DNA from: Agromyces sp. LHK192
GTDB taxonomy: Bacteria > Actinomycetota > Actinomycetes > Actinomycetales > Microbacteriaceae
NCBI RefSeq assembly: GCF_004006235.1
Contig: NZ_CP034753.1
Span: forward strand, 62,001 to 126,000
Length of the DNA stretch: 64,000 nt
Direction: 5' to 3'
Below the pieces are notes generated by a model. The model ran no database searches and was not told the DNA's origin. It was given only the letters and a program-made list of their open reading frames with translations. A program made the position numbers and the translations under genes. Positions 40,243-61,407 of this stretch are shown one piece after another. Every line of letters starts with the position of its first letter. The first letter of the stretch is position 1.

Positions 40243-40298
40243 TAGTAACGTATCGACGTGAGGCGCGGAGCTGCGCCTGCTCTGTCGAGAGGACCCCC

Positions 40299-41207
40299 GT
40301 GATCCGCACCGCGAACGCGCCAGTCAGCTATGGCGTCTTCGAACTGTCGCGACCCGACCTCGTGCCGCTGCCCGATGGCGAGCAGCTCGCCGCGTGGGTC
40401 GCCGAAGCCGGCTACGACGGCGTCGACCTCGGCCCGCTCGGCCTGTTCGGCGACCGCGACACCCTGCCCGGCTTCCTCGGCCGCCACGGGCTGGCGCTCG
40501 CCGGAGGATGGGTCGACCTGCCCTTCGCCGGATCCGACGACGACTTCGAGGCCGCGATGTCGGGCCTCGACTCCGCGCTCGAGGTGTTCCGCGCCGCCGC
40601 GGCCGCGGCACCCGACCGTGCCCCGAAGCCCACCCTGGCCGACTCCGGCTCGGCCGAGCGCAAGGCCACCCCGGGCGGTGCTCCCGAGCTCGAGCTCGAC
40701 GGCGAGGCCTGGAGCCGCTTCGCGGCCCGCGTGCGCCGCGCCGCCGACCGCACCCGCGAGGCGGGCCTCGAGCCGACGTTCCACCACCACGCGAGCACCT
40801 ACGTCGAGACGCCGCGCGAGATCGAGCGACTCCTGGCCGACACCGACGTCGACCTCACGTTCGACACCGGCCACCTGCTCATCGGCGGCGGCGACCCGCT
40901 GCCCGACTTCACGCGCTGGAAGGACCGGATCAACCACATCCACCTGAAGGATGCCGACCGCGAGGTCCTGCGCCGCGCCGCCGGCGCCGCGGACCCGCTC
41001 CGCGAGGTCTGGTCGAAGCGCGTCTTCGTCGCGCTCGGCGACGGCGACCTCGACGTCGACCGCATCGTCGACGCGATCGTCGAGTCCGGCTACGACGGAT
41101 GGCTCGTGATCGAGCAGGACGTGATCCTCCAGGATGCCGCCGACGTCGACCGCGCCCGCCGCGACCAGGTCGCCAACCGCGAGCGCCTCCGGCGGTGGTT
41201 CGCGTGA
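40299..41207 (+). CDS. IolE-like inosose dehydratase/TIM-barrel isomerase
   Basis: A 302-residue xylose-isomerase-like TIM barrel. The N-terminal NAPVSYGVFE block is typical of IolE (2-keto-myo-inositol dehydratase) and its relatives. Metal-site residues are in THHH-like TFHHHAST (about residue 160), LTFDTGHLLIGGGD and HIHLKD. It would dehydrate 2-keto-inositol to the trihydroxycyclohexanedione used by IolD. The GTG start is supported by GAGAGGACC upstream. It opens the rightward operon and overlaps the next gene by four bases (GTGA). A sugar-phosphate epimerase role is the alternative. Confidence 0.82.
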   Translation: MIRTANAPVSYGVFELSRPDLVPLPDGEQLAAWVAEAGYDGVDLGPLGLFGDRDTLPGFLGRHGLALAGGWVDLPFAGSDDDFEAAMSGLDSALEVFRAAAAAAPDRAPKPTLADSGSAERKATPGGAPELELDGEAWSRFAARVRRAADRTREAGLEPTFHHHASTYVETPREIERLLADTDVDLTFDTGHLLIGGGDPLPDFTRWKDRINHIHLKDADREVLRRAAGAADPLREVWSKRVFVALGDGDLDVDRIVDAIVESGYDGWLVIEQDVILQDAADVDRARRDQVANRERLRRWFA

Positions 41208-42370
41208 GCGCAGCAGCGGCATCCGATCGCGTCCGTCTCGCCGTCATCGGGCTCGGCGGCATCAGCCAGAGCGTGCACCTGCCCCTCATCCGCCGGAACG
41301 CCGACCGCGTCGAGCTGACCGCCGTCGTCGACCTGTCGCCGAGCCGTGCCGAGTCGATGGCCCGCGCCGCGGGCACCGGCGTCGCGGCGTTCGCGTCCGT
41401 CGACGAGCTGCTCGCCGCGGTCGCCGCCGGCGACGTCGCGGTCGACGGCGCGATCCTCGCGACCTCGGGCTCGCACGCCCCCGACGCCGGCCGGCTCATC
41501 GCCTCGGGCATCCGCGTGCTCGCCGAGAAGCCGCTCGCCTTCACGCTCGAAGAGGTCGACGCGCTCCGCGTGATCGCCGAGGAGCGCGGCGTCGACCTGG
41601 CCGACTGGCTGCGCGTCGGGTACATGAAGGAGCACGACCCCGCGACGGCCGAGGCGTTGCGCCTGCTCGCCGACGCCGACCTGCGGTACGTCACGGTCGA
41701 GGTGCTGCACCCGGCCGACGGCGCGCAGCTCGCGTTCGCCAACCTCGCGCCCGCTCCCGACGACGTTCCCGCCGACGTGCTCGCCGGTCTCGTCGCCGAG
41801 ACGGATGCCACGGTCGCCTCGGTGATCGGCCAGGCCCCGGCTCCGCTGCCGAAGCTCTACACGAACGTCGTGCTGGGCTCGATCGTGCACGACATCAGCC
41901 TGCTCCGGCACCTCGTCGGCGGCATCGGCGAGGTCGACCGCGCGCTGCACTGGGGCGGGTTCCCCGGTTCGCTGTCGCTCGGCGGCAGGCTCGCCCAGCA
42001 GCCCGACGTGCCGTGGGCGATCGACTGGCATTTCATCCCCGAATACCCGGAGTACCGCGAGACCGTCACGTTCCACCACGCGACCGGCACGATCTCGCTG
42101 CGCTTCGCGGTGCCGTACGTGCTGAACGCCCCCACCGTGCTCACGGTGGTCGACGGCGTCGGCACGCTCGGCGCCCGGTCCGCCGAGTCCCGCTGGATGC
42201 AGGAGGAGGCGTTCGAGAACGAGCTCCGCGCGTTCGCGTCGCTCGTCGCAGACGACCCCCAGCCGGGGCCGTCGGCGGAGGCATCCGCCCAGGACATCGC
42301 GGTCGGACAGCGGATGATCCGCGCGATCGCCGAATCGTTCGGATCGCGGGTCGACCGCGACCGGGCCTGA
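41204..42370 (+). CDS. Gfo/Idh/MocA-family NAD(P)-dependent dehydrogenase
   Basis: A 388-residue oxidoreductase with N-terminal Rossmann fold (VIGLGGISQSVHLPL), the EKPLAFT motif near residue 113 whose lysine is catalytic, and SIVHDISLLRHL with the proton-relay histidine. In this operon its likely job is to oxidise inositol or an inositol glycoside to the 2-keto form (the IolG role), feeding the IolE-like enzyme encoded just upstream; no other inositol dehydrogenase is in the window. The GTG start overlaps the IolE-like stop codon. Confidence 0.85.
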   Translation: MSAAAASDRVRLAVIGLGGISQSVHLPLIRRNADRVELTAVVDLSPSRAESMARAAGTGVAAFASVDELLAAVAAGDVAVDGAILATSGSHAPDAGRLIASGIRVLAEKPLAFTLEEVDALRVIAEERGVDLADWLRVGYMKEHDPATAEALRLLADADLRYVTVEVLHPADGAQLAFANLAPAPDDVPADVLAGLVAETDATVASVIGQAPAPLPKLYTNVVLGSIVHDISLLRHLVGGIGEVDRALHWGGFPGSLSLGGRLAQQPDVPWAIDWHFIPEYPEYRETVTFHHATGTISLRFAVPYVLNAPTVLTVVDGVGTLGARSAESRWMQEEAFENELRAFASLVADDPQPGPSAEASAQDIAVGQRMIRAIAESFGSRVDRDRA

Positions 42371-42381
42371 TCACCCCCCCT

Positions 42382-42397
42382 GCCCGCGCGAGCGGGC
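42382..42397 (+). promoter_or_regulatory. Intercistronic hairpin before the binding-protein gene
   Basis: GCCCGC / GCGGGC six-base stem with a GCGA (GNRA) tetraloop in the 58-base gap between the dehydrogenase and the ABC lipoprotein gene. Hairpins at this place often protect the downstream message so that the binding protein is made in excess. Confidence 0.6.
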
Positions 42398-42428
42398 GAA
42401 TCCCACACCGAAACACGAGAGGTCGAAG

Positions 42429-43835
42429 ATGATCCACCACAGCAGGCGCAGCACCGTCGCCGCGATCGCACTCGCCGCAGCGGGCGCGCTCGTCCTCGCC
42501 GGATGCTCCGCCTCGGAGCCCGAGGACTCCGAGGACGGGCCCGTCACCCTCACGCTCACCTCGAACGCCATCACCGGCGGCAAGAACGCCGCCGAGGCGG
42601 ACTGGATCTCCGACTGGGTGATCCCCGAGTTCGAGGCCGCCATGGAAGAGGAGGGCAAGGACGTCACCGTCGAGTTCGAGCCCCAGGGCGTCGACGACGA
42701 GAACTACAAGACGAAGATCGCGCTCGACCTCCAGTCGGGCGAGGGCGCCGACATCATCAGCATGGACGGCATCTGGGTCGGCGAGTTCGCCGAGGCCGGC
42801 TACATCGCCCCGCTGAGCGACGTCGCCGGCGACGCGGTCGACGAGTGGGAGGGCTGGGACCAGATCCCCGAGGCCGTCCAGGGCGCCGCCTCGTTCGACG
42901 GTGAGCGCTACGGCGTGCCGCAGGGCGCCGACGGTCGCGTGCTCTACTACAACAAGACGCTGTTCGAGCAGGCGGGCCTGCCCGCCGACTGGCAGCCCGA
43001 GAGCTGGGACGACGTGCTGGAGGCGGCACGCGACCTCAAGCAGCTCGACGGCGTCACCCCGATCCAGCTCAACGCGGGCACCGCGATGGGCGAGGCGACG
43101 ACGATGCAGGGTCTCCTGCCGATGCTCGCCGGCACGGGCGAGCAGGTCTACGAGGACGACAAGTGGATCGGCGACTCCGACGGCCTGCGCGACGTGCTCG
43201 ACCTGTACAAGACGATCTACGTCGACGAGGGCCTCGGCGACCCGGTGCTCCAGCAGGAGGCCGCCGGCCGCGACACGTCGTTCCAGCTCTTCGCGCAGAA
43301 CCAGATCGGCATCCTGCTCGAGGGCGACTACTTCTGGCGCAGCGTGATCAACCCCGCCGAGGGCGTCGGCACCGCGCCGATGGCCGACCGCGACACCGTC
43401 GTCGGCTACACGAAGATCCCCTCGGTCGAGCCCGGAGACGGCATCCGCGACCAGGACTTCGTCTCGATGTCGGGCGGCGCGGGCCGTGTGCTCAACCCGA
43501 ACAGCGAGCACCCCGAGCTCGCCTGGGAGCTCCTCGCGTTCATGAACTCGGCCGAGGCCTACGAGGCGCGCACCGCCGGAACCATCTCGATCACGCCGCG
43601 CACCGACGTCAACGAGACGATCCTCGCCGACGACCCGATGCTCACGTACATCAACGAGGAGGTGCTGCCGATCACGGCGTACCGCCCGCCGCTCGCGGCG
43701 TACCCGCAGGTGTCGGCCGCGCTCCAGCAGGCCACGCTGGACGTGGTCGTCGGCTCGAGCGTCGATGACGCGATGTCGACCTACGTCGGCGAGGTCACCG
43801 ACATCGTCGGAGAAGACGCGGTTTCGGGCAACTGA
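42429..43835 (+). CDS. ABC sugar-binding lipoprotein
   Basis: A 468-residue extracellular solute-binding protein of family 1 (carbohydrate). Signal peptide with lipobox VLAGCSAS, so lipid-anchored at Cys26. After an acidic linker (SEPEDSEDG) the bilobal domain follows: GADIISMDGIWVGEFAEAG, DGRVLYYNKTLFEQAG and EHPELAWELLAFMNS are typical. It captures the glycoside for the two permeases downstream. GAGAGG precedes the ATG. Its stop overlaps the permease start by one base. Confidence 0.92.
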   Translation: MIHHSRRSTVAAIALAAAGALVLAGCSASEPEDSEDGPVTLTLTSNAITGGKNAAEADWISDWVIPEFEAAMEEEGKDVTVEFEPQGVDDENYKTKIALDLQSGEGADIISMDGIWVGEFAEAGYIAPLSDVAGDAVDEWEGWDQIPEAVQGAASFDGERYGVPQGADGRVLYYNKTLFEQAGLPADWQPESWDDVLEAARDLKQLDGVTPIQLNAGTAMGEATTMQGLLPMLAGTGEQVYEDDKWIGDSDGLRDVLDLYKTIYVDEGLGDPVLQQEAAGRDTSFQLFAQNQIGILLEGDYFWRSVINPAEGVGTAPMADRDTVVGYTKIPSVEPGDGIRDQDFVSMSGGAGRVLNPNSEHPELAWELLAFMNSAEAYEARTAGTISITPRTDVNETILADDPMLTYINEEVLPITAYRPPLAAYPQVSAALQQATLDVVVGSSVDDAMSTYVGEVTDIVGEDAVSGN

Positions 43836-44773
43836 TGACCACCAGCAGTACCGCAACACCGACGGCGGGGCGCGCCACAGCGCCCCGCCGCCGGCGGGCC
43901 GAAGACGTGGCCGGCCTGGGCACCGCCCGGGCCGGGCTCTTCGTCGCCCCCGCACTGATCATCATCGGGCTGTTCCTGCTGTTCCCCGCGGTGTGGACGA
44001 TCTGGCTCGGCATGACCGACTACCGGCTGACCGGCCTCCAGGCCGCATCGCCCGAGTTCGTCGGCCTCGACAACTACGCCGAGGCGCTCACCGACTCCGC
44101 GTTCTGGAACTCGCTCTGGCTCACGCTGATCTTCGTGATCGCGTCGGGCATCCTCGGGCAGACCCTCATCGGCTTCGCGCTCGCGTGGAGCATCCGCAAC
44201 CTCCAGGGCTGGGCGAAGTCGCTCATCGAGGGGCTCGTGCTCGCGGCCTGGGTGATCCCGGCCTCGGTCGCCTCGTTCCTCTGGCTCGCGCTGCTCGACC
44301 GCCGTACCGGCACCGTCAACGCGCTGCTCGGCACCGAGGGCGCCGCATGGCTGATCGACCACCCGATGGAGGCGATCATCATCTTCAACATCTGGGTGGG
44401 CACCGCCTTCTCGATGCAGCTGTTCTCCTCGGCGCTGAGCGCCGTGCCGCCCTCGCAGATCGAGAGCGCGAAGATGGTCGGTGCGTCGGGCTGGCAGCAG
44501 CTGCGCGACGTGATCGTGCCCAACATCAAGGGCCACATCCTCACGAACACGCTGCTCATCACGCTCTGGACGTTCAACACGTTCACGCCGTACCTCGTCA
44601 CCGCGGGCGGCCCGAACGGCAAGACCGAGATCCTCTCGGTCTACATCTACGAGACGGCGATCCCCGGCGGCCAGCTCGGCCTGGGTGCGGCGATCTCGCT
44701 CATCATGCTGCTGATCAATCTCGTCATCGCGCTCGGCTACATGCGCGTGTCGCAGGGGAGGAAGAAGCGATGA
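43835..44773 (+). CDS. ABC sugar permease 1 (MalF/UgpA type)
   Basis: A 312-residue inner-membrane permease with six helices. The cytoplasmic EAA-type loop reads ESAKMVGASGWQQLRDVIVPNIK near residue 210, which docks on the ATPase. The N-terminal 25 residues are Thr/Ala/Arg-rich. ATG overlaps the binding-protein TGA; stop overlaps the next permease (ATGA), so the importer subunits are translated in sequence. Confidence 0.92.
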   Translation: MTTSSTATPTAGRATAPRRRRAEDVAGLGTARAGLFVAPALIIIGLFLLFPAVWTIWLGMTDYRLTGLQAASPEFVGLDNYAEALTDSAFWNSLWLTLIFVIASGILGQTLIGFALAWSIRNLQGWAKSLIEGLVLAAWVIPASVASFLWLALLDRRTGTVNALLGTEGAAWLIDHPMEAIIIFNIWVGTAFSMQLFSSALSAVPPSQIESAKMVGASGWQQLRDVIVPNIKGHILTNTLLITLWTFNTFTPYLVTAGGPNGKTEILSVYIYETAIPGGQLGLGAAISLIMLLINLVIALGYMRVSQGRKKR

Positions 44774-45699
44774 CCGCCTCGCCGAACAAGGCCGCCTCGC
44801 CGAACAAGTCCGACTCGCAGGTCGAGACCGACTCGCCGGCCAAGACCGACTCGCCGGTCAGGACGGTCGCCCGCGACAAGACCGTGCGGCACTATGTCGC
44901 CCGCGTCGTGTTCGCCGTCACCATGACGCTCGTTGGCGTGCTGTTCGCGCTGCCGATGGTGTGGCTCGTGCTCGCGCCGTTCGACGCGACGCCGACGCTG
45001 TCGCTCGAGTGGCCGGACTGGACCCTCGACAACTTCGCCCGGCTCGCCGAGAACCCGTACGCGCTGCGTTCGATCGGCAACTCGCTGATCCTGGGCGTCG
45101 GCACGATGGTGATCGTCGTCGTGCTCGGTGCGCTCGCCGCGTACGCGATGAGCCGCATCCGCATCCCCGGTCGCGACGGCATCCTGTACGCCCTGCTGCT
45201 GCTCTCGTCGATCGTGACCGGCACCGCGGCCATGGTCCCGACGTTCCAGATCATCACCCAGCTCGGCCTGATCAACAACTACGTCGGCGTGCTGCTCGTG
45301 CTGGCCGGAGGCATCCTGCCCACGGTGATCTTCATCCTCAAGGACTTCATGGACTCGATCCCGAAGTCGTACGAGGAGTCGGCGCGGCTGTACGGCGCGG
45401 GTCCGTTCCGGATCCTGCGCGACGTGGTCGTGCCGATCGCCCGGCCGGGCCTCGCGTTCATCTCCATCTGGACGATCGTGCAGGTGTGGGCGAACTTCCT
45501 CGTGCCGTTCATCCTGCTGCGCAGCCCCGACCTGCAGCCGGCGGCCGTGCTCATGTACACCTTCTACACGGAGAGCGGCCAGGCCGACCTCCGCCTCATC
45601 TCGACCTTCGCGCTGCTGTTCTCCGCGCCGGTCCTCATCATCTACTTCGTCGTGAACCGTCGTTACGGGTTCCGCTTCCATGGAGGTATCAAGTCCTGA
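44770..45699 (+). CDS. ABC sugar permease 2 (MalG/UgpE type) with N-terminal hexapeptide repeat
   Basis: A 309-residue permease with six helices and the EAA loop YEESARLYGAGPFRILRDVVVP near residue 200. Unusual is the N-terminus: five six-residue units with the pattern x-A/D-S-P-x-K (TASPNK, AASPNK, SDSQVE, TDSPAK, TDSPVR; residues 2-31), encoded by five 18-base units at 44773-44862. This tail would lie in the cytosol and is absent from standard MalG proteins. TGATG overlap with the ATPase gene. Confidence 0.92.
   Translation: MTASPNKAASPNKSDSQVETDSPAKTDSPVRTVARDKTVRHYVARVVFAVTMTLVGVLFALPMVWLVLAPFDATPTLSLEWPDWTLDNFARLAENPYALRSIGNSLILGVGTMVIVVVLGALAAYAMSRIRIPGRDGILYALLLLSSIVTGTAAMVPTFQIITQLGLINNYVGVLLVLAGGILPTVIFILKDFMDSIPKSYEESARLYGAGPFRILRDVVVPIARPGLAFISIWTIVQVWANFLVPFILLRSPDLQPAAVLMYTFYTESGQADLRLISTFALLFSAPVLIIYFVVNRRYGFRFHGGIKS
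44773..44862 (+). repeat. Five 18-base in-frame units in the permease 2 start
   Basis: The first two units differ by one base (ACCGCCTCGCCGAACAAG / G instead of A at position 1); units 4 and 5 differ at the end, unit 3 is the most diverged. The array starts directly after the ATG codon. Unit length equals that of the iolB array. Confidence 0.85.
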
Positions 45700-46775: not shown

Positions 46776-46777
46776 CC

Positions 46778-48034: not shown

Positions 48035-48121
48035 GGCATCCGGCCCGCCGCCCACTTCCCCCAGTACCGCAACGGCACCACCAGCATCACCCGTACCGCA
48101 CCACCGAAGGAGCTTCCGCAC

Positions 48122-50968: not shown

Positions 50969-50992
50969 TCGCGCGAGGCCGCGCGGCACTAC

Positions 50993-51010
50993 TGTCAGAT
51001 CATTCCGACA
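50993..51010. promoter_or_regulatory. Probable GntR autoregulatory operator
   Basis: Imperfect palindrome TGTCAGA-TCAT-TCCGACA (one mismatch in seven) 15 bases before the GntR start codon, in the 57-base gap after the mannosidase gene. Shares the TGTCAGA word with the operon promoter at 40233. Confidence 0.6.
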
Positions 51011-51025
51011 ACCTGGAGAGGCCCA

Positions 51026-51790: not shown

Positions 51791-52139
51791 GTGAGCCCTC
51801 ACCCCGTCCGCGCATGCCGCCCCGCGCGCCCCTCGTCTCGCTCTTGCGGTACACGAAGCTCGTCTCGAATTGCCGTGGGCTCAGCGCATGCTCGGGACTG
51901 TAGCGCTTGACGCCCCTTCACCGGGCATTTTCGCGGGCGGGGCTTACGGGAATCCACCCCTGTCAGGATTCTCACGTGCCTGCGTTCGTCGGCGAAGGGC
52001 CGGCTCACGGTTCGCACGCCGCCTGTCAAAGTCCGAAGTCGGCTGCACGAATGTACGAACTCGACTGCACAGTCGTTAGCGTGCCCTGCGAGCGACCGTC
52101 ATTCGCGCACTCTCTCGGCTCAAGGCCAGCGGATCAGCG
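51791..52139. other. Intergenic stretch of 349 bases without a gene
   Basis: Between the GntR gene and the convergent lipoprotein gene. Base composition falls to a visibly lower GC content than in the preceding operon. Short open frames on both strands lack ribosome sites. I see no RNA gene, repeat or convincing terminator; the small GTGAG/CTCAC repeat right after the GntR stop has too small a loop. Confidence 0.4.
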
Positions 52140-53063
52140 TCAGGTAGGTGGGTCCACGCGGAAGATTGTGGTCTCGGTCGGGCGCGATGTCACTCGTTCG
52201 ATGATCTCGAGGGCTGCTGGTTCATCGGTGGACGTCACAGCCACGTAGCCCGCGTTGCGCTCCGCGCTCGGTCCGCGCGCCCAGATGTCCGTTGTCGACG
52301 GCAGACGTTCGAGCTCCGTGAGTGCGTCCAACACGGCAGAAGTCGGCCAGTCTGCGTTGACGTCGATCGTGATATCCGACCGGCTCGCGGCATCGGGCTG
52401 CCAGGCGGCAGTGAGCGTTCCCGATGGGTCTCCTGCGATTGACGCTTGCCGGAGTACATTGACTGCCTCGCTCAGGGAAACGCTTTGCCGCATTCTCACG
52501 TTTGGGTTCACGAACGCGGAGGCATTCACTTCGATGACTTCGGGGTATGCGCGGATCACCTCGATGGTCGTGATGACACCAGGTGACAGGTTCCCAAGCG
52601 TCACGGGTGCGAGCTGCGTGGTTCCGGGGATCTGCAGCGCGAGATCGACCGAATTGCGGGCGATACGCGTGCGCTCCAATTCCGGGCGCAACTCGTCGGC
52701 GAGGTACTGGAGGTCGATTGTATCCGCTCTGACCACGAGGCTTGCCCGCCATTCGCCGGGACGATCCTTCCAATCGATGTCATGAACTTCGCCGTGTGCA
52801 GCGGCGACTCCGTCGATCCGTTCGACACGCTCGGCAAGCTCTTGAGCTTCGTACTGCAAGTCGGCCGGCGGCTGCGGCACGAACGACATGCATCCGCTGA
52901 GCAGCAATGCGGTGAGCGCACCGAACACTCCGGAAGTGAACATGCTCGTACTTATCCGGCTGACCGCAGCGGCCAAGGTTTTCAGGATCGTCGCGCCGAC
53001 GTCGCGGCGAGCCGTCAAGGCTCGCCGCTGGCGGCCGGACGCGCCCGCGTCAGCCGGCTTCAC
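52140..53063 (-). CDS. Lipoprotein encoded with an ECF sigma operon, unknown
   Basis: A protein of up to 307 residues with a lipobox-like LLLSGCMS. With the GTG start at 53063 (overlapping the sigma stop, GTGA) the first 40 residues are basic; with the ATG at 52943 the protein begins directly with a short signal peptide (TSGVFGALTALLLSGC) and has 267 residues. The mature region shows repeated beta-alpha patterns (AHGEVHDIDWKDRPGEWRASLVVRAD), resembling secreted sensory or binding domains. No family recognised. Codons are less GC-rich than elsewhere. Confidence 0.68.
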   Translation of the reverse strand: MKPADAGASGRQRRALTARRDVGATILKTLAAAVSRISTSMFTSGVFGALTALLLSGCMSFVPQPPADLQYEAQELAERVERIDGVAAAHGEVHDIDWKDRPGEWRASLVVRADTIDLQYLADELRPELERTRIARNSVDLALQIPGTTQLAPVTLGNLSPGVITTIEVIRAYPEVIEVNASAFVNPNVRMRQSVSLSEAVNVLRQASIAGDPSGTLTAAWQPDAASRSDITIDVNADWPTSAVLDALTELERLPSTTDIWARGPSAERNAGYVAVTSTDEPAALEIIERVTSRPTETTIFRVDPPT

Positions 53064-53614
53064 GATGTCGACTCATCATGGGCGGCGAGCATTCCACTCA
53101 TCCGGGACTTGGCGCGCGAGTAGCGAGCCCGTGCTGTCGCCGGGCGGATGCCGAGAATCTCCGCGGCATCCGCCAGCGTGAAACCCTCCCAGATGACGAG
53201 CGCGAGGACTTCGCGGTCGGCCTCGGAGAGTCGCGTGAAGGCGTCAATGGCGATGTCGTCATCGCTTCGTGCACTGAACTGGGCCGAGACATGGAGCTCG
53301 CCCCGGAGACGCTCGGTGAGACGAATCCGACGGACCGCACCGCGACGGTGGGTCTTCAGGACTCGGTGGGCGACGCCGTACGTCCACGCGCGTTGCTCCG
53401 ATCGGTCGACGGGGAACGCGTCCCGGCGACGCCACAGTACGAGCAGCGTTTCGCCGAGACAATCGGCGGCATCTTCAGTGGGGCTGACCCGACGACCGAA
53501 GAAGGCGAGCAGCTCGGGCGATACGGATCGCACGAACACGGTGAACCCATCACCATCTTCAGGCTCGCTCAAGCTCGGCGCCGCAGCCGATGCTGTTCCC
53601 GGTTCGTTGCTCAC
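53060..53614 (-). CDS. ECF-type RNA polymerase sigma factor
   Basis: A 184-residue sigma-70 family factor with only regions 2 and 4. Region 2 is at about residues 25-95 (LLAFFGRRVSPTEDAADCLGETLLVLW), region 4 at about 125-180 with HTH FTLADAAEILGIRPATARARYSRAKSRM. It is coupled by four-base overlaps on both sides: to a membrane protein gene upstream (start GTG 53614) and to the lipoprotein gene downstream. The upstream membrane protein is the likely anti-sigma partner. Confidence 0.88.
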   Translation of the reverse strand: MSNEPGTASAAAPSLSEPEDGDGFTVFVRSVSPELLAFFGRRVSPTEDAADCLGETLLVLWRRRDAFPVDRSEQRAWTYGVAHRVLKTHRRGAVRRIRLTERLRGELHVSAQFSARSDDDIAIDAFTRLSEADREVLALVIWEGFTLADAAEILGIRPATARARYSRAKSRMSGMLAAHDESTS

Positions 53615-54375
53615 TCGTCACGCCCCAGCAGGCCGTCGCAGGCTGATTCGCCGTACCCGGCTTCGACGAGCGTTCGATCGCCGGCCGCTGCACCGCGGGC
53701 GACTTCTTGGAGTCGGTCGACGACGCCTCCGCCGTCATGCGCGACGATCGACGGGTAGTGCGATTCATCGAGCAGCCAGTCACTGGCCACTCCGCGACGC
53801 ACTGATTCGTCTGCCGCGTCGGCGACGAGCCATTCGTCGTACCAGCTGCAGACGGCCCAGAACTCGAACGTCGTCGTGACCAGCCCTTCCTGAATGAACG
53901 AGTCCTCATCGTTCCCAAGTCGCGCTACAGTCGCGTCGACCCGCTCGATTGCATCGACCCGCCCCCAGCCGGCCGGGAGTTGCAGCCCCTCCGGATAGGC
54001 CGAGTCAATGATCGCGGGAAGATCCTCGCCGGTCAGGTTCAGCCACTCGGTGCCGTCTTCTTCCGTGCTCTGGCTCGGGTCACCGTACTGCCCGGTTCTC
54101 GCCGAAAGCCAAGCGCCGACCGCGGTCACCGGGACCGCGACCCCAATAGCGAGCACCGCGGCCACAACCCCAGCCACGAGTGCGCCGATCCGCCGCCGGC
54201 GCGTCCGCTGTGACGACGCTCGGAGGGCTTCGGCCCGGATCGTCTCGTCCTCGAGCTGGACCGCCAAAGCTACCGCTGCGATCGTGACGGCGGCATCGAG
54301 CCGGACCGCTCCCAGAGGTTGCACGCGCGCCCAGAACCCCGGGTCGTCGTCAACCTGCGATTCTTCTGCCCTCAT
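53611..54375 (-). CDS. Single-span membrane protein, probable anti-sigma partner
   Basis: A 254-residue protein with a cytosolic N-terminus of about 60 residues (LDAAVTIAAVALAVQLEDETIRAEALRA), one membrane helix at about 65-90 (IGALVAGVVAAVLAIGVAVPV) and an extracytoplasmic domain with two well-separated cysteines. This layout is that of anti-sigma factors, though I see no zinc anti-sigma HxxxCxxC motif. It precedes and overlaps the sigma gene, the reverse of the usual order. Function inferred from context only. Confidence 0.72.
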   Translation of the reverse strand: MRAEESQVDDDPGFWARVQPLGAVRLDAAVTIAAVALAVQLEDETIRAEALRASSQRTRRRRIGALVAGVVAAVLAIGVAVPVTAVGAWLSARTGQYGDPSQSTEEDGTEWLNLTGEDLPAIIDSAYPEGLQLPAGWGRVDAIERVDATVARLGNDEDSFIQEGLVTTTFEFWAVCSWYDEWLVADAADESVRRGVASDWLLDESHYPSIVAHDGGGVVDRLQEVARGAAAGDRTLVEAGYGESACDGLLGRDE

Positions 54376-54665
54376 GCCCTATCCATGGCCGCCACCTTCA
54401 GAAGTGTGACAGCCAGCAAGGAAAAATGAGGAAGCCCGTGCGCGAACTCGTTGCCGCCCTGCATCGACCGGTAGACGTCACATCGGTGGAACTAGGGGCC
54501 ACGGGCGATGAACTGGGCGACGTCGCCTGCCGTGGGAGGCACGGCTTCTGTACACCCGGGACTGCGTCAGCGACTAATCCACCGAAGTGCACGGTGAAGG
54601 ATCGCCTTACGGGCGTGACTCGCGCGCCGTGTTGCTCGCAGAGCGACGGCCGAGGAGCACGACGA
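54376..54665. other. Intergenic stretch of 290 bases
   Basis: Contains one rightward open frame (54426-54794) which I do not believe: no ribosome site, no recognisable fold, and its 3' half overlaps a better leftward small membrane gene. It may hold the promoter of the sigma operon, but I could not pick a -35/-10 pair. Confidence 0.35.
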
Positions 54666-54869
54666 TCAGCATTGGGTGCCGGCTGGATCTTCATCGGCGT
54701 CTCGAGTTTCGGAGCGTTGCCGGCCGAGCGCGATCATCAATGCTGGTACGACCACCAGAACAGCGATCATGAGATAGATCGGCCGTGCGAATAGGAGAGC
54801 GAACGCAAGCGCGAGCACGCAGACGGTGGTAATGACTGCCCAGAGCATCGTTGCCGCGGTCGGGTCCAT
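54666..54869 (-). CDS. Small two-helix membrane protein, 67 residues
   Basis: Two adjoining helices (about residues 8-27, AVITTVCVLALAFALLFA, and 31-50, LMIAVLVVVPALMIALG) and a short charged tail ending ETRDADEDPAGTQC. The N-terminal MDP resembles the 49-residue protein at 24714-24863. The ribosome site is weak (AAAGAG), so the start at 54869 is not firm. Function unknown. Confidence 0.52.
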   Translation of the reverse strand: MDPTAATMLWAVITTVCVLALAFALLFARPIYLMIAVLVVVPALMIALGRQRSETRDADEDPAGTQC

Positions 54870-54990
54870 GCCCGAACTCTTTCGGCGCGGATGCTGCGGC
54901 CATGAAGGCCGCCAACCAGTGCACCTTACCTTCGGGTCGTGCGGGCGGCAGTACTGTCGGACCACCCTGAACCCGAGAGAGGACCTTCCT

Positions 54991-55215
54991 TTGCCGCCGA
55001 GCTTCATCATCGGACCGATCCTCGTCGCCGTCGGAATCGTGTTCATCGTGCTGCGGAGGCAGATCGCGCGAAGGAACGCGAGGGCGCTTCAAGAGCAGTT
55101 CGGTCGGGTCGGCAAGTATTCCGCAACGGGGTCGACGCCATCCATTGTCGCGGCGTTCGGGTGCTTGCTCATCGTTGGTGGCCTGTTTGAGATCGGCCGC
55201 GGGCTGTGGGGGTAA
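54991..55215 (+). CDS. Two-helix small membrane protein with AxxNAxALxExFGR linker (copy B)
   Basis: A 74-residue paralog of the protein at 27237-27473: helix, then RRQIARRNARALQEQFGRV, then GSTP, then a second helix. The start is a TTG at 54991, supported by GAGAGAGGA eight bases before it. Both copies lie in lower-GC stretches among other small membrane proteins. Function unknown. Confidence 0.7.
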   Translation: MPPSFIIGPILVAVGIVFIVLRRQIARRNARALQEQFGRVGKYSATGSTPSIVAAFGCLLIVGGLFEIGRGLWG

Positions 55216-55379
55216 CCGACGTCTGAGCTGCACGCTCAGCCGAAGGAGGTTGCTCCTGAAACTCCGACCTGTCTCGCGTGCAGTCGCCGACCCGCGGCCG
55301 CCCCATGAGCGATGGTTTACCTACGGTCGCCGACGTAGGGAGAAAGTTCACGCACCATCATTCGGGCTAGATTCGCGTC

Positions 55380-56429
55380 GTGAGAATTCGCGCGGGTGAC
55401 CCGGTGTCGGGAGTGGTCGTTCGTTCCTTGGTCCTATCGGCGCGCACACGGGTCGAGAGGTTCAGGGCGCTGTTCGATGGGAAGCCGGCCGAGGAGTGGG
55501 ATCTTCCCGGCTCCGACGAGATCGTGGTGGGAGAATTCCGCTTCGAAGGCGTCGCCGGAGAATCACTACTGCTGTGGGATGGGTCGGTGAACGCGGGAAG
55601 CGCTGAGGAGGCTCACGGCTTCTTCGATGGCAACCTGGACCGTTACGAGACGCCAGTCGAGCGCGTGATCGACGCGACAACCGCACGAGCGCTGCCCGAC
55701 GCCGAGTTCTGGCCGATCATCGACAGCCCCGGGGGCCGAACGTGGGAAAGCACCACTCGCAAGGCCGAGCGACTCACCGCCGACCGCGGCGAAGAGTTCG
55801 CGGTCCGCTGGGCGCAGACGGCCGGACTGAAGGCCCTCGAGCTATCCGACGTGCTCAATGCCGCGGGTTGGGAGGCGGGCGATCAGCTCCACGTCATTGG
55901 CGCGACCCTGGCGCAGGGCCTGGATGTGTTCTCGGCGGTTCGGCGTGACCCCGAGTCGTTCGACGCTCGTTGGCTCGCGGACCTGTCGTCGCAGACAATC
56001 TGGATCGGGGCGCGCGCACTCAACCGGTTGGGGCCACACGACGAGTGGGTGAATGTGGAGACCGTCTTCTCGACCCGGCATCGCGCGCTCCTCGAACGCG
56101 CCGACGCCGACACGAGGCGTTGGCAACTCGAGCACGACATCCCGCAGGATATTGACCGTGAGCCGTCCTTCCGCATCGCTCGCGCTGTGGTGGACCTCAC
56201 GGGACGTTATCGAGAGCGATTGTTCCTACTCGTCGACGCCGAAGATAGTCCCGACGCGCCAACCCGTCATGTTGTGGAGTCGTTCGGCGGGGAGATCGTC
56301 GCCGGCCCGGAGTTCAGCAGCTCGGGCGGATTCGGAGGACTCTTCAACTGCGAGGTCTTCACCATCAAGCGGCGTAGTTCCGCTCCGGCCACCGAGTATC
56401 TTGCCAACCACACCTCAGCGCCGGACTGA
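55380..56429 (+). CDS. DUF4240-like protein, 349 residues
   Basis: Soluble protein. The middle part (about residues 108-200) resembles DUF4240: FWPIIDSPGG, then a helix pair and TLAQGLDVFSAVRRDPESFD, the place where that family usually has a GxxVYxxALxDPDSL motif. The rest is unassigned. The GTG at 55380 has no ribosome site but a -10 like TAGATT seven bases before it, so the message is probably leaderless. DUF4240 proteins are of unknown function; some lie near secretion effectors or immunity genes. Confidence 0.7.
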   Translation: MRIRAGDPVSGVVVRSLVLSARTRVERFRALFDGKPAEEWDLPGSDEIVVGEFRFEGVAGESLLLWDGSVNAGSAEEAHGFFDGNLDRYETPVERVIDATTARALPDAEFWPIIDSPGGRTWESTTRKAERLTADRGEEFAVRWAQTAGLKALELSDVLNAAGWEAGDQLHVIGATLAQGLDVFSAVRRDPESFDARWLADLSSQTIWIGARALNRLGPHDEWVNVETVFSTRHRALLERADADTRRWQLEHDIPQDIDREPSFRIARAVVDLTGRYRERLFLLVDAEDSPDAPTRHVVESFGGEIVAGPEFSSSGGFGGLFNCEVFTIKRRSSAPATEYLANHTSAPD

Positions 56430-56476
56430 ACCGGACCGGGTGATCACGCAGATATTGCGGTGTACCGCCCGCCCGC

Positions 56477-58375
56477 TCACCCGAGCAGCGGCCGCTGCGC
56501 CCCGCGCGCCTGCTCCCACTCGCGCCTCGCCGCGCGCGCCCCGTCGAGTTCGGAGACCTCGGCGACCGGCACGTCCCACCAACCTTCGCTGTCGGGGGTG
56601 ACCGAGATCGGGTCGGCCTCGACGTGGATCACCGTCGAACGATCTGACGCCTTCGCCGCAGCGATCGCGCGGCCCAGGGCCGCGGCGGCATCCGGACCGG
56701 TCGGCACCTCGATCACGTCGACGCCGTAGCTGCGGGCGTTCGCGGCGAGGTCGACGGGCACGCGGCCGCCGTGCTCGAAGTCGCGGTGCTCGGCATCGTA
56801 GCTGCGGAACTTCGTGCCGAAGCGCTCCGACCCGACCGATTCCGAGAGGCTGCCGATCGACGCGTAGCCGTCGTTCTGCACGATGACGACGATGATCTTG
56901 AGCCCCTCGGCTACGGCCGTCGCGAGCTCGGAGTGCAGCATCAGGTAGGAGCCGTCGCCCACGAGCACGATCACGTCGCGGTCCGGCGCGGCCCGGCGCA
57001 CGCCGAGTCCGCCGGCGATCTCGTAGCCCATGCACGAGAACGCGTACTCGACGTGGTACCCGAGCGGATCGCGCACCCGCCACAGCCGGTGCAGGTCGCC
57101 CGGCATCGAGCCGGCGGCCTGCACGACGACGTCGGTGGGATCGCTGGCCTCGTTGACGGCGCCGATGAGCTCGGCCTGCGTCGCGAGCGCGCGGTCCGAC
57201 GGTGCGAGCACCTCGTCGGCACGCGCGAACCACTCCCGTCGCTCGTGGGCGATGCGCTCGGCGTAGGCATCCGTCACGCGGTGGCCCCCGAGCGCGGTGC
57301 CGAGCGCTGCGAGCGCTTCGCGCGCGTCGGCGATGATCGGATGCTGCGTGCCGTGCTTGTACGCATCGAAGCTCGCGACGTTGATGTTCACGAACTCGAC
57401 GTCGGGGTTGCGGAACGCGGTGCGGCTCGCGGTCGTGAAGTCGCTGTACCGCGTGCCGATGCCGATGACGAGGTCGGCCTCGGCCGCGAGCCGGTTCGCA
57501 GCGGGGGTGCCGGTCGCGCCGATGCCGCCGAGGTTCGACGCGTGGTCCCAGGGCAGCGCGCCGCCACCGGCCTGCGTCGTTCCGACCGGGATGCCCGTCG
57601 CCTCGACGAAGCGCAGCAGTTCGAGCTCGGCCTCCGAGTACAGCACGCCGCCGCCGGCGACGATGATGGGGGCCTTCGCCGCGCGGATGCGAGCGACCGC
57701 GCGCTCGAGCGGCCCGCGCTCGGGCAGCGGACGGCGCACGTGCCACTCGCGGTCGGCGAGGAACGCCTCGGGCACGTCGAGCATCTCGGCCTGCACGTCC
57801 TCGGGCAGCGCGATCGTGACCGCACCGGTCTCGGCGGGATCGGTCAGCACGCGCATCGCCGCGAGCGCGATCGAGAAGAGCTGCTCGGGCCGCTCGACCC
57901 GGTCGAAGTACCGCGACAGCGGGCGGAACGCGTCGGTCACCTGCAGGCTCGTGTCGTGCGGCAGTTCGAGCTGCTGCAGCACCGGGTCGGCGACGCGGGT
58001 CGCGAACGTGTCGCTCGGCAGCAGCAGGGCGGGGAGCCGGTTGCTCGTCGCGAGCGCTGCACCAGTGAGCATGTTCGCCGAACCGGGCCCGACCGACGCG
58101 GTCGAGGCGAAGGTCGCGCGGCGACGACGCATCCGCGCGTAGCCGACCGACTGGTGCACCATCGCCTGCTCGTTGCGCGCCTGGTGGTACGGCATCAGGT
58201 CGGGGTCGCGGCGGTGGGCTGAGAGCAGTGCCTCGCCCAGGCCGGCGACGTTGCCGTGGCCGAAGATGCCGAACACCCCCGGGATCGTGCGCTCGCGGTG
58301 GTCGCCGTCGACCGTCCACTGGTGGGCGAGGAACTCCACGAGCGCCTGCGCCACCGTCATCCGCCGCGTCGTCAT
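56477..58375 (-). CDS. iolD: 3D-trihydroxycyclohexane-1,2-dione hydrolase (IolD)
   Basis: A 632-residue thiamine-diphosphate enzyme that opens the ring of the inositol-derived dione to 5-deoxy-glucuronate. ThDP glutamate lies in YHQARNEQAMVHQSVG (near residue 69); the cofactor diphosphate motif is GDGSYLMLHSE near 475 with the paired asparagine in QNDGYASIG. The IolD-specific start GVFGIFGHGNVAGLGEAL is clear. Overlaps the iolB stop by four bases. Last gene of the leftward iol operon. Confidence 0.94.
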   Translation of the reverse strand: MTTRRMTVAQALVEFLAHQWTVDGDHRERTIPGVFGIFGHGNVAGLGEALLSAHRRDPDLMPYHQARNEQAMVHQSVGYARMRRRRATFASTASVGPGSANMLTGAALATSNRLPALLLPSDTFATRVADPVLQQLELPHDTSLQVTDAFRPLSRYFDRVERPEQLFSIALAAMRVLTDPAETGAVTIALPEDVQAEMLDVPEAFLADREWHVRRPLPERGPLERAVARIRAAKAPIIVAGGGVLYSEAELELLRFVEATGIPVGTTQAGGGALPWDHASNLGGIGATGTPAANRLAAEADLVIGIGTRYSDFTTASRTAFRNPDVEFVNINVASFDAYKHGTQHPIIADAREALAALGTALGGHRVTDAYAERIAHERREWFARADEVLAPSDRALATQAELIGAVNEASDPTDVVVQAAGSMPGDLHRLWRVRDPLGYHVEYAFSCMGYEIAGGLGVRRAAPDRDVIVLVGDGSYLMLHSELATAVAEGLKIIVVIVQNDGYASIGSLSESVGSERFGTKFRSYDAEHRDFEHGGRVPVDLAANARSYGVDVIEVPTGPDAAAALGRAIAAAKASDRSTVIHVEADPISVTPDSEGWWDVPVAEVSELDGARAARREWEQARGAQRPLLG

Positions 58376-59352
58376 GCCGGGGCTCCCTTCGAGTCATCCG
58401 TGCGCGTCGTGTCATCCGTGCGCGTCGTGTCATCCGTACCCGCGAGCGGCAGCCGGGGATCGACCGGCTCGGCGTCCCAGGTCGACCGCACCCACCCGTG
58501 GTCCGGGTGGTCGGTGATGTTCCATACGCGATCGCCGGGGCCGGCCATCACGTTCAGGTAGTACAGGTCGTAGCCGGGCGCCGCGGCCGCCGGGCCGTGG
58601 TAGCCGCCGGGCAGCAGCACCACGTCGCCGGTGCGCACCCGCTCGTCGAGTTCGATGTGCGTGGCGGCCGACGACGACGCGCTGAAGAGCGCATATCCGC
58701 CGTCACGTGCGGCGTCGCTGCCGGCGCCGTCGCCGGTCTCGACCGGCTCGACCTCGAAGTAGTAGATCTCCTCGAGCGCCGACTCGACCCCCGGCACGTG
58801 CTCGTCGTGCTTGTGCGGCGGGTACGACGACCAGTTGCCGGCGGGCGTGAGCACCTCGCACACGATGAGCCGGTCGGCGTCGAGCACCGCCGGAGTGCCG
58901 AGGTCGTGCACCTCGCGGCTCGACTGCCCGCGTCCGCGCAGTTCGACGGGTGCGGCTTCGGCAGGAAGGTGGCGAACGGGCCGGTGCGTCGAAGCGGATG
59001 CCTCGGCCACCGCCACCCGGCCGGAGCCCGAGATGCGGGCGGCGGCCTGCGGCGGCAGGTAGCAGGTGTCGGTCGCGCCGCCGAAGACCGAGGCGCGCCC
59101 GGCCAGGTCGACCGTGGTCGGGCCGTCGGCGCCGGTGACCTCGACGCGGAACGAGCCGTGCAGCGGCACGATGAGCCGCTCGACGTCGGCGGCGTCGAGG
59201 GTGAGTTCCTCGCCATCTGCGCCGGCCAGTTCGCCGATGCGCAACCCGGTGTGCCGCCATCCGTCGATGCGGTCGTCGACCACCGCGGCCCACCCGCCCT
59301 CGGCGAGGGTGCCTGCGGGCCGGAACCAGCGCCCGCTGTCGTCGTCGGTCAC
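58372..59352 (-). CDS. iolB: 5-deoxy-glucuronate isomerase (IolB)
   Basis: A 326-residue bicupin isomerase that turns 5-deoxy-glucuronate into 2-deoxy-5-keto-gluconate. The metal histidines are in SSYPPHKHDEH near residue 180 and the later GGYHGPAAAPGYDLYYLNVMAGP-type block is present in spaced form. GTG start at 59352. The last 18 residues are a repeat, TDDTTR-TDDTTR-TDDSKG, an addition beyond the fold and encoded by an 18-base tandem repeat that runs up to the iolD start. Confidence 0.94.
   Translation of the reverse strand: MTDDDSGRWFRPAGTLAEGGWAAVVDDRIDGWRHTGLRIGELAGADGEELTLDAADVERLIVPLHGSFRVEVTGADGPTTVDLAGRASVFGGATDTCYLPPQAAARISGSGRVAVAEASASTHRPVRHLPAEAAPVELRGRGQSSREVHDLGTPAVLDADRLIVCEVLTPAGNWSSYPPHKHDEHVPGVESALEEIYYFEVEPVETGDGAGSDAARDGGYALFSASSSAATHIELDERVRTGDVVLLPGGYHGPAAAAPGYDLYYLNVMAGPGDRVWNITDHPDHGWVRSTWDAEPVDPRLPLAGTDDTTRTDDTTRTDDSKGAPA
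58393..58438 (-). repeat. 18-base tandem repeat in the iolB 3' end
   Basis: Two identical units GTCATCCGTGCGCGTCGT (58393-58410, 58411-58428) and the first ten bases of a third. In frame, adding hexapeptides to the IolB C-terminus directly before the overlapping iolD start. Confidence 0.88.
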
Positions 59353-59441
59353 GTTCGATCCTCTCGTTCCGGATGCCTCGGTGCAGTTTCAGTCCGTTTC
59401 GGATGCCTCGTGCGGATGCCCGACGCCCGGCTGCGCGCCGC

Positions 59442-60347
59442 TCACGCGTCGTGCACGAGCGCTGCCGCGGTGTCGACCGCGCGGATGACGTCGCCGTCGG
59501 GAGGGTAGACGAGCGCACGCCCGACCACCAACCCGCGCACGCCCGGAAGGGCCAGTGCGCGCTGCCAGCTCGCGTAGGTCGCCGCAGGGTCGTCGGCGCG
59601 CTCGCCGCCGAGCAGCAGGGTCGGCAGCGTCGTGGCGGCCATGACGCGTTCCATGTCGTCGACGACGGGCAGCTTCATCCACGAGTACGCCGAGCTCGTG
59701 CCGAGTCCGGCGGCGATCGCGATCGAAGTGATGACGGCCTCGGTGCTCAGGTCGTTGACGACGGCACCGTCGCGTCGGGTGCTCATGAACGGTTCGAGCA
59801 TGATCGGCACGCGAGCGGCGGCGGCCGCCGACACGGCGCGCGCGGTCGCCTCGAGCGTCGCGCTCGTGCCGGCGTCGTCGAGGTCGACGCGCAGGAGGCA
59901 CTTCGCGAAGTCGAGGCCGTCGCGCACGATGCCGGGAAGGTCGTAGGCCGTGTAGCGGTCGTCCATCTCGAACGCGGCTCCGCGCAGGCCGCCGCGGTTC
60001 ATCGACCCGACGACGACCTTGTCGTCGAGTGCGCCGAGCAGGGCGAGGTCGTCGATGATGTCGGGGGTCGCGAGCACGCCGTCGACCCCGGGCCGGGCGA
60101 GCGCGACCGTGAGGCGTTCGAGCAGCAGGTAGCGGTCGGCCATCGCCATGGGCTCGTCGCCGACGCCGAGCGCGCCCCGCGCCGGATGGTCGGCGGCGAG
60201 GATGAACAGCCGGCCGTTGTCGCCGAGCACGGGCCGCCGCCGGCGCGCGGCGTGGGCGCGGGCGATCGCGTCGGGGTCGGTCGCCCGGAGGTGGCGGATC
60301 TCGGCGAACCGCTTCGGGTCGACGAGCTGCGGGTCATGCCCGGACAT
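59442..60347 (-). CDS. Cgl0159-type TIM-barrel protein, probable IolJ-like aldolase
   Basis: A 301-residue (beta/alpha)8 protein of the Cgl0159 family, found in actinobacterial iol clusters and related to DeoC/LacD-type class I aldolases. AADHPARGALG near residue 51 and VDLDDAGTSAT near 154 are recognisable; candidate Schiff-base lysine in CLLRVD region (DFAKCLLR). Its likely job is to split 2-deoxy-5-keto-gluconate-6-phosphate, as no other IolJ is present. GGGAGGG before the ATG at 60347 lies in the iolC 3' end (14-base overlap). Confidence 0.85.
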   Translation of the reverse strand: MSGHDPQLVDPKRFAEIRHLRATDPDAIARAHAARRRRPVLGDNGRLFILAADHPARGALGVGDEPMAMADRYLLLERLTVALARPGVDGVLATPDIIDDLALLGALDDKVVVGSMNRGGLRGAAFEMDDRYTAYDLPGIVRDGLDFAKCLLRVDLDDAGTSATLEATARAVSAAAAARVPIMLEPFMSTRRDGAVVNDLSTEAVITSIAIAAGLGTSSAYSWMKLPVVDDMERVMAATTLPTLLLGGERADDPAATYASWQRALALPGVRGLVVGRALVYPPDGDVIRAVDTAAALVHDA

Positions 60348-61350
60348 CGGCGGCCCTCCCGTCGAGTCCGCGCTCGTCGAGTCCGCGCCCGTCGAGTCCG
60401 CGCTCGGCGAGCAGCGCGTCGACCTCGTCGGTCGTCGGCATCGCGGTCGAGCACTCGCGCCGCGTGGCGACGATCGCGCCGGCCGCGTTCGCGAAGCGGA
60501 TGATCCGATCGAGGGGCCAGCCGGCGAGCAGGCCGTGCGCGAGTGCGCCGCCGAAGCCGTCGCCGGCGCCGAGACCGTTCACGACCTCGACCGGGATCGG
60601 TGGGGACTCGACCGTCTCGTCGCGGGTCTTCGCGAGCACGCCGGCGGGGCCCTGCTTGACGACCGCGAGGTCGAGCCCGCGGTCGAGCAGTGCGTCGGCA
60701 GCGCGGTGCGGGTCGCGTTCGCCGACGGCGACCTCGACCTCGTCGAGGTTGCCGACCGCGACGGTGACGTGCTCGAGCGCACGGCGCACCTCGCGGCGCG
60801 CGTCGTCGACCGACGACCAGAACATCGGCCGGTAGTCGAGGTCGAGCACGGTGAGCGGGCGACGCCCGCGGGACGCCCAGGCGGCGTGGTGGGTGTCGCG
60901 ACTCGGCTGCTCGCTGAGCCCGGTCACGGTCGACCAGTACATGCGGGCGTCGCGGATGTCGTCGAGCGGAAGGTCTTCCGCGCGGAGGTCGAGATCGGGT
61001 GCCAGCGGACGCCGGTAGAACGTCAGCGGGAAGTCGTCGGGCGGGAAGATCTCGCAGAACGTGATCGGCGTCTGCAGGTCGGGCGACGTTCCGAGGTATC
61101 CGGGGTCGACGCCGAGGCGGTCGAGCTCACGCCGGAGGAAGCGCCCGAACGCGTCGTCGCCGGTCTTGCTGACGATGGCGCTTCGCCGGCCGTGCCGGGC
61201 CGCGGCGATGGCCACGTTCGCGGCGCTGCCGCCGAGTGATCGGGTGAAGGTCTCGACTTCGTCGAGGTGCCGTTCGATCTCGAGCGGGTACAGGTCGATG
61301 CCGATCCGCCCGATCGTGATGAGGTCATGGATGTGTGCTGCTGTGGTCAT
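60334..61350 (-). CDS. iolC: 5-dehydro-2-deoxygluconokinase (IolC)
   Basis: A 338-residue PfkB-family kinase that phosphorylates 2-deoxy-5-keto-gluconate. Signature motif NGLGAGDGFGGALAHG near residue 255 with the catalytic Asp; N-terminal IGRIGIDLYPLE and GGSAANVAIAAAR are IolC-like. I start at the ATG at 61350; a GTG five codons upstream is possible, and the GAGGGAG site fits neither perfectly. The C-terminus ends with the repeat GLDGR-GLDER-GLDGR, coded by a 15-base tandem repeat. First gene of the leftward operon. Confidence 0.93.
   Translation of the reverse strand: MTTAAHIHDLITIGRIGIDLYPLEIERHLDEVETFTRSLGGSAANVAIAAARHGRRSAIVSKTGDDAFGRFLRRELDRLGVDPGYLGTSPDLQTPITFCEIFPPDDFPLTFYRRPLAPDLDLRAEDLPLDDIRDARMYWSTVTGLSEQPSRDTHHAAWASRGRRPLTVLDLDYRPMFWSSVDDARREVRRALEHVTVAVGNLDEVEVAVGERDPHRAADALLDRGLDLAVVKQGPAGVLAKTRDETVESPPIPVEVVNGLGAGDGFGGALAHGLLAGWPLDRIIRFANAAGAIVATRRECSTAMPTTDEVDALLAERGLDGRGLDERGLDGRAADVRA
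60361..60405 (-). repeat. 15-base tandem repeat in the iolC 3' end
   Basis: Three contiguous units GTCGAGTCCGCGCTC (60361-60375 and 60391-60405, identical; 60376-60390 with one change). In frame, giving GLDxR repeats, and placed just before the overlapping start of the next gene. Confidence 0.88.
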
Positions 61351-61407
61351 GCGTCGCCGTGCCACTCCCTCGCTTCGCCGCGGACGGTGATCACAGTTTA
61401 CACAGAA

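Follow-up and report, generated by a model that had tools for sequence, protein, structure and literature searches.

Inositol catabolism in bacteria is usually viewed as being fed by free inositol or by phytate. A locus of Agromyces sp. LHK192 raises the question of whether a mannosylated inositol compound can also serve as its source. The locus lies in a stretch of 64,000 nucleotides (the window; positions 62001-126000 of the 4.09-Mb chromosome, one contig), in which genes of inositol catabolism (iol genes) face an operon for a carbohydrate ATP-binding cassette (ABC) importer, a metallohydrolase of the PHP superfamily and a GH38 alpha-mannosidase (Table 1). We consider it fairly probable that the two operons constitute a single inositol pathway, which imports, strips and burns an alpha-mannosyl-inositol conjugate, probably one with a phosphoester head group. 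A first-pass annotation of the window had proposed such a link, and all the genes that it named were found as open reading frames with no internal stops. A search of open-licence papers returned no description of such a pathway in the parts of the papers that it covered.

Results

A single clear IolE and a common operator probably join the two operons

The rightward operon (40299-51790) has the order iolE, gfo, solute-binding protein (SBP), permease, permease, ATPase, PHP, GH38 and gntR, and its neighbouring genes overlap or are separated by short gaps. The leftward operon (56477-61365) has the order iolC, Cgl0159-type aldolase, iolB and iolD. The two are convergent, 4.7 kb apart and not contiguous. 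An inositol catabolic gene cluster has been defined as at least three of iolB, iolC, iolD and iolE in one region (accessible part of PMC9430895). Within 56477-61365, iolB and iolC score over their NCBIfam cut-offs and iolD is assigned by orthology, with 90% identity and the same position in A. agglutinans (L039); IolE is matched below its cut-off.

In the genome of this strain, the protein encoded at 40299 is the only match to the IolE model (NCBIfam TIGR04379) at E<=1e-20; three further matches appear at E<=1e-3, each of 41 bits or less. Its score is under the curated cut-off of 290 bits. That cut-off fits the group badly, because 33 of the 34 genomes with the module have nothing over it (one passes) although iolB exceeds its own cut-off in 31, and we predict from the sequence that the 40299 protein functions as IolE. 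The IolE of the module is the sole match at E<=1e-20 in 11 of the 34 genomes searched, which include all seven Microbacteriaceae of the set (G000, G079, G240 and G249-G252) together with G257, G262, G261 and G265; its identity as the module gene was set by coordinates against the loci (in G079, a place just beyond locus L166). In the remaining 23 genomes, additional or different IolE candidates are present, such as those next to iolB in Actinomadura G259 and G266. The substrate of IolD is the product of the IolE dehydratase, as stated in the accessible parts of PMC9430895 and PMC9603128. Since the sole clear IolE sits in the rightward operon, the leftward operon is most likely dependent on the rightward one. 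IolA, which the first-pass annotation had called missing, is absent at the locus only: the genome encodes one IolA-like protein at 3794794-3796275 and a second at 624083-625567, which share 70% and 58% identity, respectively, with the aldehyde dehydrogenase found within the operon in Microbacterium.

The two operon heads carry a common palindromic word, which is found in promoter regions. TGTYAKRACM has only two sites in the window, at 40233 and 61408, one per operon head. As 0.38 sites are expected and 6 of 100 shuffles reach two or more, it is the positions of the sites and not their count that carry weight. The 12-base form has three sites in the 4.09-Mb genome, two of which are these operon heads and the third of which is inside an open reading frame; the control word has none. 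We then counted the stricter word TGTYAKGACA in 61 loci (1.28 Mb, counting the window; some genomes contribute more than one locus). Of its 32 sites, 30 precede SBP, iolE, iolC, iolD or gntR operon heads, in stretches that total 13.1 kb or 1% of the sequence, and 1 site falls in the 74.5 kb that precede other genes; these counts are partly circular because the word was first read from these promoters, a point against our interpretation for which the shuffled words and the rarity elsewhere are the control. Among 300 shuffled words, at most 4 sites and on average 0.03 were found in the target stretches. With the looser TGTYAKRACM, which admits the Agromyces iolE form, 36 of 42 sites are at target heads. 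Another word, GTNTANAC, was dropped; its matches were confined to the iolC side of Agromyces and a single place in L163.

The GntR/UTRA protein encoded at the end of the rightward operon is probably an IolR-type regulator, and its binding to the operator is predicted from sequence. It shares 51-53% identity with the GntR encoded at the head of the iol operon of Actinacidiphila (L046, L073), an operon that is also headed by the strict word. IolR of Corynebacterium glutamicum reportedly binds KGWCHTRACA (Klaffl 2013), and the operator word here may be equal to that motif. Elsewhere, a site lies just upstream of the gene preceding iolC in L165, and L040 and L041 have near variants only, at the iolE promoter. 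No site was scored in L042, L101, L112, L158 and L159, nor in L166, whose stretch ends before the iolE head. The common operator at both heads and the sole clear IolE in the mannosidase operon support the view that the operons form a unit and serve inositol catabolism.

The genes recur together in relatives

The first-pass annotation had named a lack of co-occurrence in related genomes as one outcome that would refute its proposal; co-occurrence was found both locally and genome-wide. We aligned 22 GH38 homologues and took 80 named loci with up to 10 kb of flank on each side, a set from which the window's own genome is perhaps absent; the linkage counts are among these 80 listed loci, by tblastn. 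GH38 and the PHP orthologue stand together in 31 of the 80 (the 31%-identical PHP in L105 was excluded), and ten of the 31 have iolC, aldolase, iolB or iolD orthologues in their flanks (L039, L040, L041, L049, L052, L053, L055, L056, L057 and L058). The genomes behind the 31 loci have iolB over cut-off in 28 cases, the misses being L064, L070 and L097. Three arrangements were seen: convergent in Agromyces, one run in Microbacterium, and divergent in Nonomuraea and Micromonospora. The Microbacterium genes lie on one strand as iolE-gfo-SBP-permeases-ATPase-PHP-GH38-iolC-aldolase-aldehyde dehydrogenase-iolB-iolD.

Among 394 genomes drawn from the class, 42 have the PHP orthologue, with a clean gap between best matches of at least 243 bits and next ones of at most 160, and iolB is over cut-off in 165 of the 394. 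Forty of the 42 PHP genomes have iolB versus 125 of the 352 others (Fisher p 1.3e-14, a value uncorrected for kinship, which weighs against our interpretation). The PHP genomes without iolB over cut-off are G194 and G425. Among the matches listed, PHP and iolB are on one contig in 24 of the 42 genomes, and 22 of these pairs are less than 50 kb apart; iolB of G603 and G498 is outside those matches. Of the 249 Microbacteriaceae drawn, 88 have iolB over cut-off. Five Agromyces are in the draw: G000, G079 and G240 have both this GH38 and iolB, and G142 and G194 have neither this GH38 nor an iolB over cut-off.

The glycosidase beside PHP varies. In L158 and L159, from relatives with 1.4- and 1.8-Mb genomes, the third gene after PHP encodes a GH63/MGH1-like protein, and nothing related to the GH38 of the window was seen in these stretches; in L157, PHP is followed by a GH38 of a different subfamily. 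We counted this variety in favor of our interpretation, as it follows an alpha-glycosidase logic. L158 and L159 also have a LacI-type regulator near the ABC-PHP-Gfo genes.

Other settings of these genes were seen. In Streptomyces and Actinacidiphila (L043-L047, L073 and L105), GH38 has a GH2 beta-galactosidase-like neighbour and a gene set of its own without this PHP. Actinacidiphila L046 and L073 were not counted as modules: their GH38 gene is close to iol genes, but the transporter is a different one, the neighbour is a GH2 gene and PHP is absent. The PHP-GH38 module of L064-L068, L070, L072 and L100 adjoins two genes of one family each, and the L064 members match a Pfam proteasome family. 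In L049 (Microbacterium sp. Se63.02b), fused or broken frames appear in place of the SBP-permease and PHP-GH38 genes, by decay or sequencing error. Pieces of this GH38 with an in-frame stop occur in two iolB-bearing Microbacteriaceae (G022:C232:5413-5778 and G178:C1:2939617-2939817).

Importer, hydrolases and dehydrogenase

An SBP_bac_1 protein, two BPD_transp_1 permeases and an MsmK-type ATPase identify a CUT1 carbohydrate ABC importer. The nearest solved structure to the SBP is 5ci5, followed by maltose and sulfoquinovosyl-glycerol binders among others; the nearest structures bind mostly neutral sugars, and the fold comparison points to no ligand.

The PHP protein scores over the cut-off of the CehA/McbA model, and its residues H151, H153, D158, H183, E208, H215, H249, D302 and H304, which we take to be candidate metal ligands, are invariant in 23 aligned sequences; on both grounds it belongs to the CehA/McbA-type PHP metallohydrolases. 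A Pfam search with the proper frame, 46778-48034, gave no match. A 784-amino-acid (aa) frame from 45680 was rejected as an overlong open reading frame, the gene start being near 46778. The structure model has a predicted local distance difference test (pLDDT) value of 93.5, and the nearest folds include those of RNase AM and of an enzyme from Chromobacterium violaceum whose solved structure contains AMP and phosphate.

GH38 membership follows from the domain score over cut-off and from the conservation of H17, H19, D21, D130, H344 and D345, presumably the catalytic Asp and zinc-site residues, which are invariant in 22 aligned sequences. In the PDB it matches the GH38 structure 3lvt (E 8.2e-59), and the nearest named protein is that of A. 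agglutinans, 81% identical. The only NCBIfam model matched is that of mannosylglycerate hydrolase (NF007331), at 312.4 bits versus an equivalog cut-off of 1138, and the protein is not assigned to that enzyme. No signal peptide was seen by eye in PHP or GH38.

The PDB matches of the Gfo/Idh protein, all weak, include inositol dehydrogenases and DgpA alike. The gfo gene is kept near PHP and GH38 without a local iolE in L064, L065, L067, L068, L070 and L072 (Planobispora, Planotetraspora, Microbispora and Microtetraspora). Because it is kept there, and because no iolB was found in the L064 and L070 genomes, Gfo may act on the conjugate or on mannose rather than on inositol. The first-pass suggestion that this dehydrogenase is the entry enzyme of inositol catabolism is weakened to that extent.

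The stretch between the operons

We judged the stretch between the operons to be outside the system, because its G+C content is lower (65% versus 72-73% in both operons) and because no gene is called there in A. agglutinans (L039), whose operons also face each other. In the window it holds an ECF sigma factor gene (53060-53614) and three or four other genes, among them a neighbouring 254-aa gene, a lipoprotein-like gene and a gene of 333-349 aa without Pfam match. The same spot holds two other genes in G240 (L167) and six in G079 (L166).

Table 1. Features of the locus, in window coordinates
Feature	Position	Strand	Evidence
Operator ATGTCAGAACCT	40232..40243	+	55 bases upstream of rightward operon; TGTYAKRACM site (two in window); 12-base site (three in genome)
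IolE (2-keto-myo-inositol dehydratase, predicted), 302 aa	40299..41207	+	TIGR04379 E 2.2e-43, 148.9 bits; PDB 3cny E 3.3e-22; conserved alignment columns
Gfo/Idh/MocA dehydrogenase, 388 aa	41204..42370	+	PF01408 62 bits
CUT1-type solute-binding lipoprotein (SBP), 468 aa	42429..43835	+	PF01547 130.8 bits
ABC permease 1	43835..44773	+	PF00528
ABC permease 2	44770..45699	+	PF00528 (match on 44737-45681 of same frame)
MsmK/UgpC-type ABC ATPase, 358 aa	45699..46775	+	PF00005, OB_MalK, TOBE_2
CehA/McbA-type PHP metallohydrolase, 418 aa	46778..48034	+	NF038032 135.6 bits, cut-off 80, scored on overlong frame containing the gene
GH38 alpha-mannosidase, 948 aa	48122..50968	+	PF01074 (Glyco_hydro_38N) 112.6 bits, cut-off 25
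GntR/UTRA regulator, probable IolR	51026..51790	+	PF07702, PF00392
Inter-operon stretch, ECF sigma factor and genes without Pfam match	51800..56429	.	65% G+C; no gene called there in A. agglutinans L039
iolD, 632 aa	56477..58375	-	Orthology to A. agglutinans gene and place in iol runs of relatives
iolB (5-deoxy-glucuronate isomerase)	58372..59352	-	TIGR04378 230.5 bits, cut-off 205
Cgl0159-type aldolase of iol operon	59442..60347	-	PF22649 419 bits
iolC (5-dehydro-2-deoxygluconokinase)	60334..61365	-	TIGR04382 358.9 bits, cut-off 300; gene caller prefers start 61350
Operator TTGTTAGGACAT	61407..61418	-	Upstream of iolC

Discussion

A proposed route from a mannosylated head group to inositol

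In the mechanism that we propose, the two operons form one IolR-type regulon, and the CUT1 ABC importer would take up a small inositol conjugate, most likely an alpha-mannosyl-inositol with a phosphoester. Both the identity of this compound as a mannosylated inositol and the presence of a phosphate on it are plausible. Its candidates follow from chemistry and would be delipidated head groups of the phosphatidylinositol mannoside (PIM) or mannosyl-inositol-phosphorylceramide (MIPC) type, that is, a glycerophospho- or phospho-inositol mannoside from actinobacteria or a mannosyl-inositol-phosphate from fungal sphingolipid. Mycothiol and galactinol were set aside as substrates; we know of no GH38 enzyme that acts on their sugars. 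In the cytosol, PHP would remove the ester-linked group and GH38 the mannose. The freed inositol may then be oxidised by the Gfo/Idh protein or by another inositol dehydrogenase and dehydrated by the IolE of the operon, and IolD, IolB, IolC and the Cgl0159-type aldolase would degrade the product, with an IolA-like dehydrogenase encoded elsewhere. The GntR/UTRA repressor would silence both operons via the TGTYAKGACA-like operators as long as neither inositol nor an intermediate is available.

The phosphate is where this scheme meets its first competitor. The conjugate might be an alpha-mannosyl-inositol with another ester group and no phosphate, in which case PHP would be a carboxyl-ester or similar hydrolase. 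The nearest structures of the SBP, mostly neutral-sugar binders, and the match of PHP to the CehA/McbA model agree with such a conjugate; a characterised CehA hydrolyses oxamyl, a carbamate (accessible part of PMC4850150). Against it stand the fold neighbours of PHP, RNase AM and the C. violaceum enzyme with AMP and phosphate, although a fold in common is no proof of the reaction, and the finding that a Sphingobium member of the PHP superfamily is a phosphodiesterase (accessible part of PMC5460133). We regard a phosphate-free conjugate as unlikely.

A little less likely still is that the locus holds two separate neighbouring systems under one regulator, in which the ABC, PHP, Gfo and GH38 proteins use an inositol-free alpha-mannoside, and IolE and IolCBD degrade free inositol that enters otherwise. 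The following observations count for it or, more generally, against a single inositol pathway. Of the 31 listed loci with GH38 and PHP, 21 lack iol genes within the flanks covered. Several loci have Gfo but no IolE, among them those of Microbispora (L064 and L070), which have PHP, Gfo and GH38 without importer genes and in whose genomes no iolB was found. The sole NCBIfam match of GH38, to mannosylglycerate hydrolase, would also suit an inositol-free mannoside, at the sub-cut-off score given above. ABC and PHP genes occur without this GH38 in L149 (with a heparinase-II/III-like neighbour), L154 and L160 (contig ends), and in L154 no GH38 was found by tblastn. Family f26 has many iolB-positive genomes without this PHP. 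The PHP of Agromyces G194 belongs to the group by score and adjoins YdjC and MFS (major facilitator superfamily) genes in a genome with no iolB over cut-off; a high PHP score is therefore not always a sign of the module. Finally, the operator wiring is not universal, since no site was scored in 26 of the 46 loci with an SBP, iolE or iolC label, including Microbacterium L040 and L041, and no operator was found in the scorable modules of Actinomadura, Planobispora, Planotetraspora, Microtetraspora, Sphaerisporangium and Streptosporangium. What argues for a single pathway over two separate systems is that iolE and gfo head the ABC-PHP-GH38 operon in both Agromyces and Microbacterium, that both operon heads here carry the common operator, and that nearly all PHP genomes have iolB.

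It is very improbable that the association merely reflects descent, the two gene sets being frequent in some Actinomycetes and inherited as neighbours: the co-occurrence statistics ignore phylogeny, but the three gene arrangements, the other glycosidases near PHP in some relatives, the presence at both heads of an operator with hardly any other site in the genome, and the single IolE-model match all speak against it.

Comparison with known systems

With the iol cluster of C. glutamicum the locus shares iolC, the aldolase, iolB, iolD and IolE, here with a palindromic word at the operon heads. The inositol genes of that organism are under the GntR-type repressor IolR (accessible parts of PMC12298647 and PMC8634428). 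Unlike that cluster, the locus here adds a dedicated CUT1 importer, PHP and GH38 under the same operator. A survey of inositol catabolic gene clusters (PMC9430895) had no match for 'mannos', 'glycosid' or 'ABC transporter' in the accessible portion of its main text.

The SmoF systems have the same type of importer for a delipidated glycolipid head group, sulfoquinovosyl glycerol, and SmoF is among the structural matches of the SBP. Cleavage in these systems follows inside the cell. They differ in the sugar, the glycosidase family and the downstream pathway, and the SBP is 16-18% identical among the matches listed.

MngB, the mannosylglycerate hydrolase, is likewise a GH38 enzyme, and its model is the one matched by the window's GH38, at the score far under cut-off noted above. 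MngB has its own importer of the phosphotransferase system (PTS), whereas inositol genes adjoin the GH38 of the window. The bacterial GH38 alpha-mannosidases of Streptococcus pyogenes and others (2wyh, 3lvt) share the sequence family and the aligned motif positions; to our knowledge, they have no link to PHP or inositol genes.

Implications

Mannosylated inositol is a hallmark of mycobacterial-type and fungal membrane lipids. More tentatively than for the locus itself, and at somewhat less than even chances, we suggest a widespread and undescribed actinobacterial pathway for mannosylated inositol-phosphate head groups, PIM-like or fungal MIPC-like. It would have a constant ABC-PHP core and an alpha-mannosidase slot filled by two GH38 subfamilies or by a GH63/MGH1-like enzyme, and it would be wired into the inositol regulon in several lineages. 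If this is true, actinobacteria would feed on mannosylated inositol by means of an importer, a PHP hydrolase and an alpha-mannosidase coupled to inositol catabolism, and the PHP group and the GH38 group that recur across the class would gain their first functions.

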